From positions 496,001-560,000 of the forward strand of contig NZ_JAKGAM010000001.1 in the NCBI RefSeq assembly GCF_023061285.1: a DNA stretch of 64,000 bases, read 5' to 3'. Within the stretch, counting starts at the first letter, position 1; each line of letters starts with the position of its first letter. Both the position numbers and the translations under genes were made by a program. Shown here in pieces: positions 3 to 8,807 of the stretch. This DNA is from Chromohalobacter nigrandesensis (lineage in GTDB: Bacteria; Pseudomonadota; Gammaproteobacteria; Pseudomonadales; Halomonadaceae). A model generated the notes under the pieces. That model was given only the letters and a program-made list of their open reading frames with translations, did no database searches and was not told where the DNA came from.

Positions 3-1337
3 ATGGACCTGTTCGCTTCATCCCAATCCGATAACACGCCGCTGGCCTATCGCATGCGCCCACGCCAGCTCGATGACTACGTCGGCCAGGAAGCGCTGGT
101 CGGTCCCGACAAGCCGCTGCGCCGCATGGCGGAAAGCGGCGCGGTACGCTCGATGATCCTGTGGGGGCCGCCGGGCGTGGGCAAGACCACCCTGGCCGAT
201 ATCCTCGCCGATGCCTCGGGCGCCATGCTCGAACGCCTGTCGGCGGTGATGGCCGGCGTCAAGGATATCCGCGCCGCCGTGGAACGCGCTCGCGAGGGCC
301 AGGTCCGCGGGCAGCCGACGCTGTTGTTTCTCGACGAGATCCACCGTCTCAACAAGAGCCAGCAGGATGCCCTGCTGCCGCACGTCGAATCCGGGCTGCT
401 GACCCTGATCGGCGCGACCACCGAGAATCCCTCCTTCGAGGTCAATTCGGCGCTGCTCTCGCGGGCACGCGTCTATGTGCTGCGCAAGCTGGAGGTGGAC
501 GACCTGCTGCGTGTGCTGCATCAGGCCCTGACGGATACTCAACGTGGCCTGGGAGAGCGCCATATCGAGGCCGACGAAGACGTGCTGGAAACGCTCGCAC
601 GCTCGGCCTCGGGCGACGCACGTCGCGCACTGGGTCTGCTGGAGACGGCTTGCGATTTCGCCACGCCCACCGAGAACGGCGAACACCTGACCCTGCAGGC
701 GCTGCATGAAGTCCTGGGACATCAGGGCAGCGCCTTCGACAAGCAGGGCGATCATTATTACGACCTGCTCTCGGCGATCCACAAGTCGATACGCTCGTCA
801 CGCGCCGATGCTGCGCTTTTGTACATCGCGCAATTCGTGCAGGGCGGCGGCGACCCGCTCGATGTAGTGCGCCGCCTCGCCGCCATCGCCTCGGAGGATG
901 TCGGCAATGCCGAGCCCCGTGCCCTGCCGCTGGTGATGGCCGCCTGGGACGCCTACCTGCGTCTGGGCGACTACGAAGGCCAGCGCGCCATCGCCCATGC
1001 CGCCTTGCACCTCGCCATCGCGCCCAAGAGCAACGCCATCGACCAGGCCTGGAACGCCGCCAAGCAATTCGTCGCTGCGAATCCCGACTTCGAGGTGCCC
1101 ACCTACTTGCGCAACGCCCCCACCAAGTTGATGGAATCCCTCGGCCATGGCGAGGGCTACCGCTATGCGCACAACGAACCCAACGGCTATCCCGCCGGGC
1201 ACGCGCATGACTGCTGGCCATCGGAACTGCCCGAAACCACCTTTTTCAACCCCACGGAATACGGCCAGGAAAAACGCTTCAAGCAAATGCAGGCCTGGCG
1301 CGCCGAACTCGACGCCCACGCCGACGGGACGTCATGA
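3..1337 (+). CDS. rarA: Replication-associated recombination protein A (AAA+ ATPase)
   Basis: RarA/MgsA is a AAA+ ATPase of the clamp-loader superfamily that acts at stalled replication forks and gapped DNA with SSB. The 444-residue product has the family's usual length. It shows a Walker A loop (GPPGVGKT, residues 55-62), a Walker B with [11 protein letters not shown] near residues 104-114, a sensor-1 GATTENPSF stretch and an arginine-finger region (LLSRARVY). The C-terminal half carries the family's tetramerisation segment ([20 protein letters not shown]). The ATG at base 3 gives the normal N-terminus (MDLFASSQ), so the gene looks complete although its upstream signals lie outside the window. 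Its stop overlaps a tiny Gly-Ile repeat ORF by ATGA. Identification is firm. Confidence 0.97.
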
Positions 1338-1429
1338 GCCCCGCCGCCCTCAACGGCATCGGCATCGGCATCGGCATCGGCATCGGCATCGGCATCGGCA
1401 TCGGCGCAGCCTATCGTGAATGTCGCTGA
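1334..1429 (+). CDS. Candidate 31-aa ORF with (Gly-Ile)8, overlapping the rarA stop
   Basis: An ATG overlaps the rarA TGA as ATGA, so it could be translated by re-initiation. The reading frame runs MSPAALN, then eight Gly-Ile pairs encoded by the hexamer repeat, then GAAYRECR and stop. Copy-number changes in a 6-bp unit would keep the frame and only alter protein length. I know no family of this kind and there is no independent Shine-Dalgarno. In related genomes crcB often follows rarA, so this could be a worn 5' remnant of a downstream gene, but the sequence does not prove that. It may equally be non-coding. Confidence 0.25.
   Translation: MSPAALNGIGIGIGIGIGIGIGIGAAYRECR
1355..1402. repeat. 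Hexanucleotide tandem repeat, 8 perfect copies of GGCATC
   Basis: Eight uninterrupted copies of GGCATC fill 48 bp directly after the rarA stop. The repeat is perfect, which suggests recent expansion or active slippage. It sits in frame inside the small ORF that overlaps rarA. Confidence 0.97.
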
Positions 1430-1462
1430 GCCAACGATGGGTCTTGGGCGATAACGCTTCAT

Positions 1463-2722
1463 TCATGCCGAATTCGCCAGTTGCAGGGTGACGTCGTGGA
1501 TCAGCCGAAGGTCGTTGAAGCGGCTGGCGCGGCTCTCCAATTGATGCAACTCAAAGGCCTTTTGCTCGCTGCGCGGCAAGCTCTGGTACTCGGCAATCAC
1601 CTGGAAGAGCCAGATCTCCTCACCCCATTCCATGTCACTTTCCTGCAGGTAGGCCAGCGCACTGATGCCGGTGGGATCGGGATGGTCGATCACCGTCAGA
1701 TAGAAGCTTTCCACGTCCTGCTTGAGGGCCTGTTGGCGCGCCGCCACCAGGCTCTGCTCCTCGGCTTCGGCGGGCCGTGCGGCAGCGACGGTCTGCGGCT
1801 TGTGCAGCGGCGTCGGCAACTGGTGCACGAGGTCGGTCAGTACGCGAATATCCGGCTCATGATCCACGGCCGGCGCGGCAGCAGCGATCAACGGGACGGC
1901 CTGGTTGATCAGGTCGGGCACGTCGCTGCGCCGTGCATAGTTGCCGGGAACGAAATTGGGATGCTCACGCAGAAACGCCGCCATGCCACTGATCAACCGA
2001 CTGCGCGATTGCTGCTGGCGGAAGCGGGCCATCAGCTCGGTCAAACGACTCTGGACCTCCCGCAAGCTGGTGTAGTGCTGGCTGATCTGGCGCTGCAATT
2101 GACTTATCAGCAGCTTGCGCAGGGTGCCATCGCCGCCGACCAGTTCGATCAGCTCGTCGAAGTCGATCAGTTGCAGGCCATCCAGCAGGCGCACGATCTG
2201 CTTCTGGGCACGCTCGTTTTCGCGAATCTTGTCGTTCAGGCGACTGACGAAGCCGAAGTCGCTGTTGAGGCGCTGCCAGAGACTGTCGATGGCGTCGGCG
2301 AAACGTCCGTTGAGATCATCGACGGCCTGGCGCAGACGCAGCAACTGCTGCTCCTGACGCCAGTATTCGCCCTGGCTCTGGGCCTCGCGGTAGCTCTGCA
2401 CCAGCGTGCGCACCAGCTCCAGGGTTTCGCCCACATCGGCGTTGACCTGGCGGCGGGTTTCGTCGGCCAGCATCTCGGCGATCAACTCGCGCACCCTGGG
2501 CGCCAGCTTGACGCCCCCCTGATCATCAGGCCGCCAGACGATGCGCGCGGCCAGCAGCCGCCGCAGCGCACTGTCGCTCAGGGCCTCCAGCGGCACTTCA
2601 TCGCGACTGTAGCCCTGCATCAGGACGTCGGCGTGCTTGCCAAGCAGCGCCAGACGTTCCACGCCGGTGCCGATCAGGCGACTTTCCAGCTCATGCTCGT
2701 CGCTCACCGCAAACTCTTTCAT
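1463..2722 (-). CDS. mksF: MukF/MksF-like kleisin subunit of a condensin
   Basis: Third gene of a three-gene operon with an SMC-like ATPase and a MukE-like protein. The 419-aa product is mostly helical. An N-terminal segment to about residue 90 could be a winged-helix module, followed by long amphipathic helices (about 95-260, including QRLNSDFGFVSRLNDKIREN) like the four-helix middle region of MukF/MksF. There is a Pro/Ala-rich linker near 290-330 and a small C-terminal helical domain. The length fits the MksF family (around 400-450 residues). The start overlaps the upstream stop as ATGA, implying translational coupling. The kleisin would bridge the two SMC heads. The assignment rests on operon context plus architecture, so the subunit identity is likely rather than certain. 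Confidence 0.72.
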   Translation of the reverse strand: MKEFAVSDEHELESRLIGTGVERLALLGKHADVLMQGYSRDEVPLEALSDSALRRLLAARIVWRPDDQGGVKLAPRVRELIAEMLADETRRQVNADVGETLELVRTLVQSYREAQSQGEYWRQEQQLLRLRQAVDDLNGRFADAIDSLWQRLNSDFGFVSRLNDKIRENERAQKQIVRLLDGLQLIDFDELIELVGGDGTLRKLLISQLQRQISQHYTSLREVQSRLTELMARFRQQQSRSRLISGMAAFLREHPNFVPGNYARRSDVPDLINQAVPLIAAAAPAVDHEPDIRVLTDLVHQLPTPLHKPQTVAAARPAEAEEQSLVAARQQALKQDVESFYLTVIDHPDPTGISALAYLQESDMEWGEEIWLFQVIAEYQSLPRSEQKAFELHQLESRASRFNDLRLIHDVTLQLANSA

Positions 2723-3345
2723 AACAAGCTTTCCTGCGTCTGCGGGCGCTCGTCGTCGACGGGCAGGTTTTCTTCGTCGCGAATGAGCCGCACCAGATCG
2801 ACGAGGTAATCGATCTTGCCGGTGACCAGATAGACCTGGCGGTCGGCATGCGGCTGCAGCAGATAGCCGTGTTCCCTGAGGCGTTTGAAGACTTGCTTCA
2901 TCTGGGCGTCGAGCTGTTCGCTCTGGGAACCGAAGAAGCTGTCGCCGGCGAGACGTTCGAGCTGTTCGCGCAGGCTCTGGTTGTCCTCGCAGCGGGCACT
3001 GAGTTCGGCGGGTTTGAGCACGTCGCCAGGTGCCACCAGGGCGTCATGGCCCAGGGCTTCCTGCATCAACTGCAGCCATTCGAGCATCGGCATCAGGCTA
3101 TGCAGCACCTCGCCGAGCTGCCGCGATAGCTGCTCGCGGGCCTCATCGTTGAGCTGCCGCCAGGCCAGGAAGTAGACACTGCCCTCGGCGTTGGTGGCCA
3201 AGCGGCGATTGAGCGGCCGCAAGTAAGTGTCGATCTGCTCGCGCACTTCCTCGTCTTCGAGACGCCGGAAGGCTCTATCATCGCTCACGGCGCAGACGAA
3301 CTCGCCGGCCAGCAAGCGCTCCAGCAACGGACCATGTTCGATCAT
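2719..3345 (-). CDS. mksE: MukE/MksE-like condensin accessory subunit
   Basis: Middle gene of the condensin operon, 208 aa, matching MksE in size. The N-terminal half (EREQIDTYLRPLNRRLA-type helices, then YFLAWRQLND) resembles the paired winged-helix fold of MukE-type KITE proteins. The C-terminal part (MKQVFKRLREHGYLLQP and VYLVTGKIDYLVDLVRLI) looks like the second winged helix. Its start and stop overlap both neighbours as ATGA, so the three subunits are almost certainly made at coupled ratios. A consensus AGGAGG lies 7 bases upstream of its ATG, inside the end of mksB, which may boost its synthesis relative to the SMC. KITE subunits bind the kleisin and modulate loading on DNA. Family call is by context and pattern. 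Confidence 0.75.
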   Translation of the reverse strand: MIEHGPLLERLLAGEFVCAVSDDRAFRRLEDEEVREQIDTYLRPLNRRLATNAEGSVYFLAWRQLNDEAREQLSRQLGEVLHSLMPMLEWLQLMQEALGHDALVAPGDVLKPAELSARCEDNQSLREQLERLAGDSFFGSQSEQLDAQMKQVFKRLREHGYLLQPHADRQVYLVTGKIDYLVDLVRLIRDEENLPVDDERPQTQESLL

Positions 3346-6300
3346 GACGTAACCTCCTCGGCGGTACGTTCCTGCAGGCGTTCGGCCAGGCGACTCAGAC
3401 GCGGTTCGATGCGCTTCAGGCGGCGGCGACTCGGTTGCTCGGCGTCACGATCGATCAGATAGCGATTATGGAACAATAGCAAGACGTCGGACTCGGGGTT
3501 GGGAAACGCGCCGACGATATGGATGCGGTTGCTATCGCAGGCGTCGAACAGCATCTCGACATTGTGATAAGCCAGCGTACCGATCTCATCGATGGGCCAG
3601 TGAATGGCGATCTCCGATGGCCCGCGCAGCAACCGCGTGAAGGCAAGCAGGAACTTGCACAGGATCAGATAAGCCATGCCGTGACTCGAAGATTCGAGTA
3701 GCTGACGATCGCTCTTGATCACCAGGTCGGTGCCACCCTCGTTCAAGTGCAACTCGAGGCGTAACAGGCTTTCGAAACTGTATTGCTGGTCGTGGCGCAG
3801 CAGATCGACGACATCGGCCAGCGCATCCAGATAGTCATCACCGGGCAGCGTCTGGTTGGCGTTCTCCCAGTCGCGATAAAGCTGAGCGAAGCGCTTGAGT
3901 GGCTCCCAGAAGCCCAGCTCGTCGATGGTCGACTGAATGCGTACCTCGGCCTTGTTGATGCCCTCGAGGCGCAGGTCATCGGCCACTTCTTCGGACAAGC
4001 GGCGGCTCTGGGCGCTGATGCGTCGATTGAGGTCGCGGAAGACGGTGAAGAACTTGTCCAGGTCGGCCCCCAGGTTGCGCCCCTGCTGGATCAATTGCTG
4101 CTGCTGATCTTCGAGCAACTGCAGCATGCCCCGCAGCAACGGAAGCTGACGGCGCGGATCGATGCTCTGCTCGCCAGCCCCGCTTAACAGCTTGGCGCGT
4201 TCGGCTTCCAGAGTCTCGACGAAGCCCTGACTGGCGCCCTTGATCAGCTCGCTTTCGACCTGCTCGCAACCCTTGCGCAGGGTTTCCACCTCCCTGCTGC
4301 GGCTGCCCAGCGCCTGACGTGTGCGCTCGATACGTTCATGCACATCGCCCAGCGCTTCCCGGGTGGGCTCGCCGGCGGCATTCGGCGCTGAAGTAAGTCC
4401 TAGCCCATCGACCTGACCGAGCAGTGGTTTGAGAGCGTCGATGACTTCGCGTTCGCCATTGCAGCGTGCCTTAAGCGTCTTGGCGGCTTGCTGGTGCGCC
4501 ACCTTGGCAGCCTGATAATCGCTGCGACACTGCTCGCGCTGGTGCTCGGCGGCCTGCTTGTCACGCGTCAGCGTCGCTTCGCGGTCGACCAGTTGCGGCT
4601 TGCGCTCGCCCCATTCGACACGCATGAAACGCGTGTAGGCATCGAGCTCTTCGCGGCGGCTTTCGGTAACGCGAATGCGCTCCTGCAAATCGCTGATGCG
4701 CTGGCGCGTCAAGCGCAGGGTTTCAGGGTCACCGCCCTGATCCTGAAGCTCCTGGTCGAAGGCCGCTTCCAGTTCCTGGCGTTGACGCTGGTGCTCGGCC
4801 TTGAAGTCTTCGAGTTGTTGCTTGTACTGATCGATGCGTGCGTCGAAGCTGGCCAGTTGGCTCTGACCATCGGCCTTGAGTTCCAAGAGTTGCGCCTGAT
4901 GGGTCTCATCGAGCGTGCTCAGTGCCTCGCGCTTTTCATCGCGCAGGGCCTTGTCGGCGGCCTGCTGACTGGCCAGCGCTTCTTCGGCGACTCGCCGGCG
5001 CTCTTTCTGCTGCCGCGCATGACGCTCCTGACATTGATGTCGGGCATCCAGGGCATATTCGACTTCATCATCGGCATGCTTGAGGGCGAGACGCGCCTGG
5101 CTGAGGGGCTCCTCGGCCCCCTGCACCCGGTCATGGCAGGCCTTGAGTTGTTTCTCGGCGGCCTGAAGATCGGTTTCGGCGCGCGCTTGTTCGGCCTCGG
5201 CGACATCGATGGCAGCATTGAGGCTCGCCTCGTCGCGGGCGTGATCGGGCAGCTCGATGGCGGCAAGATCGAGTGCCACGCCGTACAGGTCGTCGTGCTC
5301 GGTGTCACCGAGCTGTGGCGAAAGATCGCGACGCTCAAGCAGTTCGGGCGCGATGATCTTGCCCAGGCGGTGCTCCCAGCCAGGGCGATGGTAACGCATG
5401 AAATAGCGCAGGCTGCCCTCGTCAGGATCGCGCTGCCGCTGGAGTTCCTGAGAGCGCTGATTCGCCCGATTGAGTTGCTGTTTGGCGCTTTCTCGCTGCT
5501 GCTCTGCCGTGTCGCGTTCGCGGCGCAGGGTTTCGTGCTCACGGCGCAAGCCTTCAAGACGACTGGCGGCAGCGTTGCGATCGCTCTGGGCCTGATCGAC
5601 CCTGGACTGGGCGAGTTCCGCTTCCTGAATCTCCTCGGGCACCTGACCGGTCGAGGCAAGTTGCGCCTTGAGATCGGCCAAGCGTTCGATGCCTTGCTCG
5701 AGCCGCGTCTGATAGCCGGCGTCCAGTTCGCTGCGCTGCGTGTGGTACTGGGCTTCCAGTTCACGCTCGGACGCCCACTGCTGCTCCTGGCACGCCGACT
5801 TCTCGTCGCCCAGTTCATTGATGAGCGCCTGGATTTCATCGCTGCGCCGCGAGAGGTTATCGGCAAGCTCGCGCAGGCGACCGTCAAGGCGTGAGCGGTT
5901 GGCCGCAGAGGCTTCCTGCATCACCGCCAGATGCTCCTGCAACTGCTGGGCCTGTTCGCGCCATTGCGGCAGCTCGGCCAGGTCCCGCTCCAGGGCGGGC
6001 ATATCGGCCTCGGCATACTGTTCATATTGCTGCTGCAGGTCGTTCAGGCTGCGCTGGGTGCGATCCAGCTCGCTGGCAAGCTCACTGATGCGATCGTTGA
6101 GGGTGTCGCGAGCCTGCTCGTATTCCTGCTCGCGCGCCTGAAAGGCTTCCTGCTGCGTGTTCAGCTCGGCCTCGGTGTCGGCCAGCACGCGCTCCGCGCG
6201 ATGGCGATCGGCATCCAGTTGTGGCTTGAGCTGCCAGAGCGTCGCTTCCAGATCGACGATATTGCGGTCGACGTCGGCCAGTTCCGCCAGTGACTGTTGC

Positions 6301-7040
6301 AGCGGCTCCAGGCGCATCGACTGGCGCATCTGCGCGATCCAGTCGCGCGCCTTGGTATTGCGAATGCGGGTCACCGGCAGTTCGACGCCGTCTTCCTCGA
6401 AGATCGCCGCCAGCATGGTCTTGAGGGTGTCCATCTTGCCCTCTTTGGCATGCACCGCCGAAATCAGCTTTTCCATATGGCGGATGCGCCGCTCGGGCTT
6501 GACCAGGCTGAATTTCGCGGCGGTCTGGCGCAGCTTCAACGCCTCGCGCCGGTTACCCTGCTGCTGGGTAAAGTCGTTCTGGATCACCGCACGGTATTCA
6601 GAAGTCGCCCCGAACTTGGCCGAGAAGTCGATACCGGCGCGACGCAACCCCGCCAACCAGTCGCCGTACTCCAGCGCCACCACACCGTCCTCGCTTTCCA
6701 CCAGGTAGTCTTCGGGCTGATACGGCGCAGCGACGAAGCGATATTCCAGGCCGCCCTCTTTCTTGCGCGTCAGCACGGCCTGGCAGACATTGCCTGCCTC
6801 GCGACGGTATTCGTAGATCAGATAGCTGTTGCGATGCGGCAGGTAGAAGGCATCGAACTTCATCCGTGTCTTGGGGACGACCTTGTTGGGCAGTTCGCCG
6901 TAGAAGACCGGCACCAATCGCTGAAGCGTGGTCTTGCCCGAAGCGTTGGTGCCACAGATATTGGTGTGGCCATCGACATCCAATTCGACCACGCCTTCCA
7001 GATGGCCGTGGATCATCACGATACGTAGCAGGTGGGCCAT
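3342..7040 (-). CDS. mksB: MukB/MksB-like SMC ATPase of a condensin
   Basis: First gene of the operon. It encodes a 1232-aa SMC-like protein with an N-terminal Walker A (GTNASGKT, residues 30-37), long coiled coils rich in Gln/Glu/Arg, and a C-terminal head containing an ABC-signature-like LESSSHG (about 1115-1121) and a Walker B (IHWPIDEIG, about 1146-1154). These are the parts expected of an ATP-driven DNA loop extruder. I chose the ATG at 7040 (MAHLLRIVM): it has AAGGA 6 bases upstream and a plausible promoter just beyond. The frame extends 11 codons further only through a TTG. The Walker A is followed by LQRLVPVFYGELPNK, unlike E. coli MukB, so this is a divergent Mks clade. No MksG/JetD nuclease gene is adjacent. 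Confidence 0.85.
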   Translation of the reverse strand: MAHLLRIVMIHGHLEGVVELDVDGHTNICGTNASGKTTLQRLVPVFYGELPNKVVPKTRMKFDAFYLPHRNSYLIYEYRREAGNVCQAVLTRKKEGGLEYRFVAAPYQPEDYLVESEDGVVALEYGDWLAGLRRAGIDFSAKFGATSEYRAVIQNDFTQQQGNRREALKLRQTAAKFSLVKPERRIRHMEKLISAVHAKEGKMDTLKTMLAAIFEEDGVELPVTRIRNTKARDWIAQMRQSMRLEPLQQSLAELADVDRNIVDLEATLWQLKPQLDADRHRAERVLADTEAELNTQQEAFQAREQEYEQARDTLNDRISELASELDRTQRSLNDLQQQYEQYAEADMPALERDLAELPQWREQAQQLQEHLAVMQEASAANRSRLDGRLRELADNLSRRSDEIQALINELGDEKSACQEQQWASERELEAQYHTQRSELDAGYQTRLEQGIERLADLKAQLASTGQVPEEIQEAELAQSRVDQAQSDRNAAASRLEGLRREHETLRRERDTAEQQRESAKQQLNRANQRSQELQRQRDPDEGSLRYFMRYHRPGWEHRLGKIIAPELLERRDLSPQLGDTEHDDLYGVALDLAAIELPDHARDEASLNAAIDVAEAEQARAETDLQAAEKQLKACHDRVQGAEEPLSQARLALKHADDEVEYALDARHQCQERHARQQKERRRVAEEALASQQAADKALRDEKREALSTLDETHQAQLLELKADGQSQLASFDARIDQYKQQLEDFKAEHQRQRQELEAAFDQELQDQGGDPETLRLTRQRISDLQERIRVTESRREELDAYTRFMRVEWGERKPQLVDREATLTRDKQAAEHQREQCRSDYQAAKVAHQQAAKTLKARCNGEREVIDALKPLLGQVDGLGLTSAPNAAGEPTREALGDVHERIERTRQALGSRSREVETLRKGCEQVESELIKGASQGFVETLEAERAKLLSGAGEQSIDPRRQLPLLRGMLQLLEDQQQQLIQQGRNLGADLDKFFTVFRDLNRRISAQSRRLSEEVADDLRLEGINKAEVRIQSTIDELGFWEPLKRFAQLYRDWENANQTLPGDDYLDALADVVDLLRHDQQYSFESLLRLELHLNEGGTDLVIKSDRQLLESSSHGMAYLILCKFLLAFTRLLRGPSEIAIHWPIDEIGTLAYHNVEMLFDACDSNRIHIVGAFPNPESDVLLLFHNRYLIDRDAEQPSRRRLKRIEPRLSRLAERLQERTAEEVTS

Positions 7041-7079
7041 GCCGGGTCCTTGGTAGTTTGCGCTTTTTTGCAAAAGGCC

Positions 7080-7109
7080 ATTCTACCCACCGCCGGCAGG
7101 CACAACCAA
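7080..7109 (-). promoter_or_regulatory. Probable sigma-70 promoter of the mksBEF operon
   Basis: On the minus strand a TAGAAT (-10, 7080-7085) is preceded after 18 bases by TTGGTT (-35, 7104-7109). Transcription would begin near 7073, giving a 5' leader of about 33 bases before the ATG at 7040. The -10 matches five of six consensus bases and the -35 only three, so strength is uncertain. Confidence 0.5.
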
Positions 7110-7196: not shown

Positions 7197-8807
7197 TTAC
7201 AGGTCGTCGGCCCGCGGCGGTTTGCCGACGGTCACCTCACTGAGTTTCTCGTGGGACAAGCCGCGCAGCAACGCGAACATCATGGCGAACACCAGGATGA
7301 ACATCGGCAGACCGACGACGGTGATGACCTGCTGCAAGGCGGTCAACCCGGCATCGCCGGCAAGCACGATCAACATGGCGGCTAGCATCCCTTCGGACAC
7401 GCCCCAGAACACCCGCTGATACCAGGGGCCCGGCTCGGGCGTCCCGGTACATAGCATGTCGACCACCAGCGAAGCCGAATCCGACGAGGTGGCAAAGAAT
7501 ATCGCTACGATGACCACCGCCAGGCCCTGGATCAGGGTCGCCGCCGGGAAGTTCTCGAAAAAGGCGAACATCGCCAGCGGAATGCTCTCCTCCACTGCCG
7601 TAGACAGCGATCCGGCCTGCGCGCCGAGTGCCGCACGTGCATCTTCGCCGATACCGTCGATCTGCATTGCCGACCAGCCGAAGATCGCGAACCACACCAA
7701 GGTAAATATCGACGGGGCGAACAACACACCGAGTACGAATTCACGGATCGTGCGGCCGCGGGAGATACGCGCCACGAAGATGCCGATGAAAGGCGACCAG
7801 GTCACCGTCCACGCCCAATAGAAGACGGTCCACCCTCCTTGCCATCCCCAGCCTCCCTCTTCGTGGGTATATTGCGCCAACGCATCGTTCCAGAACGCCA
7901 TCGGCACGATGTTGGAGACGTAGATGCCGACCGTTTCGATGATCGAGCGCAGCAGAAACACGGTCGCCCCGGTGACCAGCACGAACAGCATCAGGCCGAC
8001 GGCCATGCCGATATTGATGTTGGACAGCACCCTCACGCCCTTGTCCAGACCCGCCACGATCGAACACACCGCCACCGTCGTTAGAACGGCAATGATGATG
8101 ACCTTGGGCATGACGCCATTGGAGACACCGAGCAGCTCACTCAAGCCGGCATTGATCTGCTGAGTGCCCAGACCGATCGACACGGCCACACCGAACAGGG
8201 TGCCGAGAATCGCGAAGACATCCAGCGCTTTACCCAGTGGCCCGTAGATACGATCACCGATCAGCGAATAGAACACCGAGGAAAAGCGCATCGGCAGGTC
8301 ATAGCGGTAGATGAAATACGCGAATGCCAACCCGGGCAGCGTGAAGATCGCCCAGGTATGCAGCCCCAGGTGATAGATCGCGAACCCCATCGCGTCGTCG
8401 GCGGCCTGTACTGAGAAGGCCTCGACATCCGGCCGCGGCGGGTTGGCGAAATGCGACATGGGTTCGGCCACCCCCCAGAACATCAGCACCGTGCCGATGC
8501 CCCCGGCAAACAGCATGGTGAACCAGGAGACGTTGCCATAAGCCGGCTTGGCGTCATTGCCACCGAGACGAATCGCACCGAAACGACTGAAGGCCACCCA
8601 CAGCAGAAACACCACCCAACTGGTCACCCCGAAGATGAAAAACCAGCCGAGATTGGTGACGATCCAGGTTCGGCCGGCCCCGAAGGCAGCGCCGATGGGT
8701 TCAGGCGCCACGAGTAGAGCGACCAGAAAAACCACCATGATGCCGGCCGATACGAAGAATATCGTCGGATCGGTTTGCAGCCCGAGTCTACGCGCCAGTT
8801 TTTCCAT
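7197..8807 (-). CDS. BCCT-family betaine/choline/carnitine transporter
   Basis: BCCT carriers take up glycine betaine, choline or related compatible solutes with Na+ or H+. The 536-aa product has the twelve hydrophobic segments of the family and its hallmark WTVFYWAWTVTWSPFIGIFVARISRGRTIREF region (read in two parts around residue 315). It also has FGVAVSIGLGTQQINAGL in the substrate-path helix. The short N- and C-terminal tails lack the long cytoplasmic extension of osmosensing BetT types. The start at 8807 (MEKLARRLG) has AAGGAAC upstream; the frame continues 25 codons further without a ribosome site. A short inverted repeat, CTTCTA-N9-TAGAAG (8834-8854), lies just upstream and may be an operator. 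The substrate cannot be settled from sequence alone. Confidence 0.93.
   Translation of the reverse strand: MEKLARRLGLQTDPTIFFVSAGIMVVFLVALLVAPEPIGAAFGAGRTWIVTNLGWFFIFGVTSWVVFLLWVAFSRFGAIRLGGNDAKPAYGNVSWFTMLFAGGIGTVLMFWGVAEPMSHFANPPRPDVEAFSVQAADDAMGFAIYHLGLHTWAIFTLPGLAFAYFIYRYDLPMRFSSVFYSLIGDRIYGPLGKALDVFAILGTLFGVAVSIGLGTQQINAGLSELLGVSNGVMPKVIIIAVLTTVAVCSIVAGLDKGVRVLSNINIGMAVGLMLFVLVTGATVFLLRSIIETVGIYVSNIVPMAFWNDALAQYTHEEGGWGWQGGWTVFYWAWTVTWSPFIGIFVARISRGRTIREFVLGVLFAPSIFTLVWFAIFGWSAMQIDGIGEDARAALGAQAGSLSTAVEESIPLAMFAFFENFPAATLIQGLAVVIVAIFFATSSDSASLVVDMLCTGTPEPGPWYQRVFWGVSEGMLAAMLIVLAGDAGLTALQQVITVVGLPMFILVFAMMFALLRGLSHEKLSEVTVGKPPRADDL

Follow-up and report, generated by a model that had tools for sequence, protein, structure and literature searches.

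An SMC-first, Wadjet-like operon with a stub of its putative nuclease gene in Chromohalobacter nigrandesensis

What is left for a structural maintenance of chromosomes (SMC) complex to do when no nuclease stands beside it? The question is raised by three genes of Chromohalobacter nigrandesensis (Halomonadaceae), here called B, E and F, within a stretch of 64,000 nucleotides (NCBI RefSeq assembly GCF_023061285.1, contig NZ_JAKGAM010000001.1, positions 496,001 to 560,000; hereafter the window). An initial annotation read them as an mksB-mksE-mksF operon without a nuclease subunit, which either organises the chromosome or relies on a nuclease encoded elsewhere. The absence of the nuclease is not original: relatives with the same gene order carry a fourth gene, G, of which the window keeps about 22 codons. 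Judged by its family matches, the operon is a DUF3584/MksE-type SMC system, and it is probably (at a rough probability of 0.7) a nuclease-less derivative of an SMC-first, Wadjet/Mks-like mksB-mksE-mksF-mksG system, retaining the motor for a task other than cutting.

The operon and the trace of a fourth gene

The genes and the junction that follows them are placed in the window as follows.

3342..7040, minus strand: B, SMC ATPase (mksB-like, PF12128 DUF3584), 1232 amino acids, 735 bits in Pfam
2719..3345, minus strand: E, KITE-type subunit of the MksE family (PF21980), 208 amino acids, 40.3 bits against a cut-off of 27
1463..2722, minus strand: F, kleisin-position subunit (mksF-like), 419 amino acids, named from place and size
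1402..1466, minus strand: 5' stub of the lost mksG (DUF7281 TOPRIM), about 22 codons, its start overlapping the stop of F as ATGA
1354..1405, no strand: hexamer array (CGGCAT)8.7, found by TRF with 100% matches, exactly at the deletion junction
1338..1356, minus strand: remnant of a deleted truncated-haemoglobin-like gene (its last codons and 3' flank), from comparison with the junctions of L045, L046, L047 and L077

Minus-strand open reading frames and 4-base ATGA overlaps at both the B/E and the E/F junction bear out the description of three overlapping genes with that for SMC at the 5' end. The SMC reading frame opens with TTG at 7073, and its likelier start is the in-frame ATG at 7040, not 7109.

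Relatives of the same order carry B-E-F-G, in which G is a short TOPRIM protein of about 290 amino acids belonging to Pfam DUF7281; that domain is the fourth gene in 24 of the 32 loci compared, and the order B-E-F is kept at every locus where all three genes were found. The DUF7281 model matches topoisomerase VI-A and MksG/JetD in a fold comparison that barely covers the first 100 or so residues, and a direct profile comparison of G with JetD is weak (E 1.3e-4). G supplies a candidate function for this Pfam domain. A literature search found no text naming DUF7281 or the SMC-first order, which does not establish absence from print, while DUF3584 occurs in one paper, PMC3695513; the complex is indeed little described, as had been supposed.

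The closest relative in the data set, L045 (97% SMC identity), retains an intact G. The stub frame in the window begins MNEALSPKTHRWLSDIHDRL where G of L045 begins MNEALSPRTHRWLSGIHDRL, with 60 of the first 69 bases identical. After F come the stub of about 22 codons, the hexamer array and then the end of the haemoglobin-like gene, which elsewhere in the genus separates the SMC cassette from rarA and which we take to be a truncated haemoglobin (trHb). The remark that no MksG-type gene is adjacent stands, but the stub had been overlooked. Since L045 still has G, and the synonymous divergence (dS) between it and the window is 0.07-0.23 in B, E and F, the loss in the window looks recent.

The suggestion of a nuclease encoded elsewhere fared less well. 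Across the whole genome the sole match to the G profile at E up to 10 is the stub itself (residues 1-23 at 1395-1466, E 0.89), and a JetD_C search gave no match; a nuclease in trans was rejected for these two families. Phase variation through the junction repeat was considered as well and found no support, because a change in copy number of a 6-base unit preserves the reading frame.

Loss of G across the family and exchange at rarA

Among 275 genomes of the family, an SMC match was found in 142 and a G match in 137. From a reading of the search tables, SMC is full length (46% identity or more) in 124 genomes and G in 110; in the other 18 of the 142 the match is to a fragment, a split gene or a homologue at about 26% identity, and these were left uncounted. 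Full-length G is missing from 18 of the 124, and once G520, G400 and G420 are set aside (their contigs end near G), it is lost or broken in 15 of 121. In 15/15 of these loci no part of B, E or F is missing, all three being full length; G is gone, reduced to a short stub (the window; L077; L073 and L083 with 41-42 residues) or split. Pieces of G lie several kb apart in L084:2807-9308 and L085:2660-7798. JetD_C was found in 0/15 nuclease-less genomes, and what comes next after F is the trHb gene, rarA, or a gene that G-bearing relatives also have, on the far side of G (L079, L080 and L081 against L021).

On a tree of B+E+F built by a quick method (37 family loci, of which 22 have G and 15 lack it), the state of G changes 11 times, at least 10 of these changes being forced by starred branches; with four outer loci added there are 12 changes, 11 forced. 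L048, outside the family, has no G at its locus (G was not searched genome-wide) and was left out of the 37-locus tree. If SMC and G were struck in proportion to length, the p-value would be 7e-8 for 10/10 hits on G and 6e-7 for 10/11. A broken SMC with a full G was seen only in genomes 77-89% complete, G438 being an ambiguous case. A full G without a full SMC was seen in G476 (89% complete), G489 (80%) and G436 (77%), all set aside, and in G438, which is 95% complete in 230 contigs and has a full G and no SMC match. G054 and G437 were counted as G-bearing despite a stop flag, G of L061 (G054) reading 299 amino acids without a stop; G405 (L087) has an intact G about 3 kb past F, and in G527 G lies on another contig. 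Some operons have decayed as a whole: G473 and G546 keep only pieces of F or G, G477 has SMC and G both broken, and the SMC match of G392 spans 95 residues only.

Pairs of loci with a common loss junction allow selection on the remaining genes to be followed. The ratio of nonsynonymous to synonymous divergence (dN/dS) is 0.054 in B, 0.031 in E and 0.033 in F for L046/L047 (rarA, 0.026), and 0.068, 0.043 and 0.036 for L073/L083, at dS of 0.24-0.40; across six pairs in which both loci have G, the values span 0.009-0.164 (a single zero and the saturated L056/L058 omitted). By this comparison, the motor shows no sign of relaxation without G. L079/L080 (0.102 in B, 0.074 in E, 0.108 in F) was dropped as a post-loss pair, the two being not joined by the tree and their junctions merely similar. 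Erosion of a nuclease-docking surface was also sought, in 34 of 41 loci: at columns invariant in 19 G-bearing rows there are 43/7/34 deviations (B/E/F) in 15 nuclease-less rows, and the reverse comparison gives 151/27/67, so that no erosion signal is seen.

The neighbourhood of the operon was read correctly at the outset, Pfam matches confirming rarA on one side and a BCCT carrier on the other. The rarA site also holds a second kind of cassette in the genus.

3..1337, plus strand: rarA (context), PF12002, 168.7 bits
7197..8882, minus strand: BCCT carrier (context), PF02028, 562.7 bits
L112:5801-14058; L091:938-9195; L113; L114: second SMC-JetD cassette, at the rarA site

All 10 genus genomes could be placed at rarA: 6 carry B-E-F (one with G), and 4 carry a different cassette in another order, encoding proteins of 489 and 258 amino acids, an SMC-like protein of 1634 and a JetD_C protein of 377. 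The 489- and 258-residue proteins are taken as kleisin and KITE from place alone; for three of the cassette's proteins no Pfam family is matched at E up to 0.01. The second cassette is identical in G053 and G337 over 8258/8258 bases while rarA has dS 0.42, so it moved very recently. SMC cassettes thus swap at the rarA site of this genus. In L077, the stub of G is followed by 90 bases that match the final part of the second-cassette SMC gene together with the beginning of the gene after it in G335; the match scores 105, and none of 200 shuffles exceeds 29. As read from this match, the junction is a scar of one system replacing the other. G335 lacks the JetD gene, the other three genes of its cassette being full length (L114:14700-15260), and on gene content a second, distinct system at this site has lost its nuclease in parallel. 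With both systems counted, 6/10 genus genomes are without a nuclease.

Relatives also lie on plasmids; four of these were opened, and one is conjugative. That plasmid, pMAQU02, carries B-E-F-G (L115:3926-10403), and so may employ the operon against rival plasmids. A 209-kb record filed under Dolichospermum phage Dfl-JY45 holds a complete B-E-F-G by profile match (L146:4447-10823). DUF7281 also occurs above cut-off in L138 (about 7891-8352), with no B, E or F found in the vicinity. In L139 and L140 it scores below cut-off, and matches to the SMC profile are only weak; these three are possibly another context of the domain.

A putative motor without its nuclease

Family searches place the three subunits unevenly. 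B matches DUF3584 strongly and contains the Walker A context to which the initial annotation drew attention, GTNASGKTTLQRL. In an alignment of 21 sequences, window included, G30, N32, G35, K36, T37, S1119, G1121, D1151 and E1152 are invariant, residues that we take to be those of the Walker A, signature and Walker B motifs. Against TIGR02168 (SMC-ScpAB) B scores 27.3 bits, far under the cut-off of 567. None of the three window proteins matches the Pfam families of MukB, MukE or MukF at E up to 1, and MukBEF and JetABC are absent among the matches listed in sequence searches of B, E and F against solved structures. PADLOC returned nothing for E or F, and for B only JetC1 over residues 12-53 (E up to 0.001). 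Profile comparisons are weak for B (MukB, E 5e-4; JetC, 0.0017) and for E (MukE, 0.009 in a full-length alignment; JetB, 0.15), and the E protein of the plasmid relative L115 reaches MukE at 0.053, below cut-off. F has no match above threshold in Pfam or NCBIfam, and profile comparison with MukF (0.39), JetA (0.24) and the 489-residue protein of the second cassette (0.31) gives no match. Of the proposed MukE-like and MukF-like pair, then, the former holds, with E above the MksE cut-off, and the latter is a label by position and size, since F is without an above-threshold family match; B and F resemble MukBEF or JetABC no further than the head motifs.

With all four genes present, B, E and F would make up an SMC motor powered by ATP, which loads onto DNA and draws it in; G would do the cutting once the motor encounters a small circle, in the way others report for JetABCD. 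Our reading takes F as the kleisin and supposes, as we infer, that a complex of B, E and F forms, can move DNA and has a use even when G is missing. A canonical SMC gene (contig C47, 1075 bits) is also present in the genome, so the window operon comes on top of it. What a motor without G would most likely still do, next to the housekeeping SMC, is handle DNA without cutting it: it might compact or organise the chromosome, or incoming DNA, as has been proposed for MksBEF of P. aeruginosa. From family and selection we infer that B-E-F may act as a motor organising DNA without cutting; a chromosome-organising role, as first suggested, is possible. Repeated loss of G with an intact motor suggests a defence system being turned to non-cutting DNA handling.

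Three other explanations deserve consideration. B-E-F may still serve defence, restricting plasmids or phages without cutting (they would be trapped or silenced), or with the help of an unrelated nuclease encoded elsewhere. Exchange of SMC-JetD cassettes at the genus site would suit such a role, as would the occurrence of relatives on plasmids and in a record filed as phage, but no DUF7281-type or JetD_C protein was found in the genome (other nuclease families were not searched) and no new gene stands in the place of G, and we regard it as unlikely, if the most serious competitor. The operon may instead be a snapshot of decay, in which G, a costly nuclease, went first and a motor functionless without it persists for lack of time. 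The recent loss in the window and the wholly decayed operons noted above are what decay would leave; against it, every nuclease-less operon keeps full-length B, E and F, and the junction-sharing pairs, at dS of 0.24-0.40, have dN/dS of 0.03-0.07, no higher than G-bearing pairs and not far above rarA in L046/L047. Decay is on this evidence rather improbable. An MksBEF of the usual P. aeruginosa kind, its gene order shuffled, would explain the three-subunit make-up and the MksE match of E, but it fits poorly with the constant order of B-E-F, with relatives that carry G, and with the likeness of B and F to MukBEF and JetABC stopping at the head motifs; we consider it very improbable.

Several observations weigh against a nuclease-less derivative with a retained, working motor. 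L046 and L047 have a common junction yet are not sisters in the tree, dS between L046 and L077 is 0.02 in E against 0.58 in rarA, and the junction in L077 is recombinant; with recombination at the locus, junction-sharing pairs need not be wholly post-loss. Some changes of G may be regains, and G state is neither clustered nor unclustered on the tree beyond shuffles. L058 has G with a split F (E and F were surveyed in opened loci, not in all 275 genomes). No erosion of the docking surface was seen in nuclease-less lineages, no kleisin matches F in sequence, and because the window seems to have lost G recently, little can be concluded from its intact motor alone.

A wider proposal is worth stating, if tentatively: SMC-first B-E-F-G may be an undescribed Wadjet type with recurrent loss of DUF7281, each loss turning a plasmid-cutter into a non-cutting condensin, at a site that also exchanges with a second SMC-JetD cassette, itself shedding its nuclease. 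If true, condensins would be born from a defence system, seen at many stages within one bacterial family. Bacteria of this family are culturable, and with at least 10 nuclease-state changes on one tree and close relatives with and without G, the step from defence to chromosome organisation is directly testable, as is the question of whether chromosomes are a substrate for a Wadjet-type motor in the first place.

Relation to known systems

The reversal of gene order relative to mksFEB(G) and JetABCD, noted at the outset, is borne out by the order mksFEBG given in PMC10123090 and by a control JetABCD-type locus among the relatives (L150), which runs 489-residue protein, 224-residue protein, a further open reading frame of 297 residues, SMC and JetD. 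According to PMC10586767, JetABCD cuts small circular DNA via JetD and is modelled as a DNA-extruding machine, and nuclease-less P. aeruginosa MksBEF is proposed to derive from Wadjet by loss of JetD.

Wadjet or JetABCD, that is MksFEBG type I (C. glutamicum, P. aeruginosa PA14, E. coli GF4-3), has in common with the operon studied here an SMC, a KITE and a kleisin-position protein, and with its relatives a TOPRIM protein of the topoisomerase VI-A/MksG/JetD fold and their presence on plasmids and at an exchange site. It differs in being kleisin-first where the window type is SMC-first, and in a nuclease of DUF3322-JetD_C type where the relatives' G is a short DUF7281 protein, deleted in the window. 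The window thus has the SMC ATPase and the KITE and lacks both a nuclease in the operon and the order kleisin-KITE-SMC-nuclease; with the nuclease missing and the kleisin not first, we name it Wadjet-like and nuclease-less, not Wadjet.

MukBEF is alike in its SMC, KITE and kleisin make-up, in the weak match of the MukB head and in the weak MukE alignment; it is unlike in its order F-E-B and in the size of MukB (1486 amino acids, against 1232 for the window SMC), and to our knowledge it has no associated nuclease.

The nuclease-less MksBEF of P. aeruginosa likewise has three subunits beside a housekeeping SMC, although in PAO1 the order is mksF-mksE-mksB and we know of no nuclease stub there. 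The window has three subunits, with F a putative kleisin by place and size, and a separate housekeeping SMC (the search covered SMC, not ScpA/ScpB), and by analogy it fits a parallel case to P. aeruginosa MksBEF in a divergent, SMC-first lineage.
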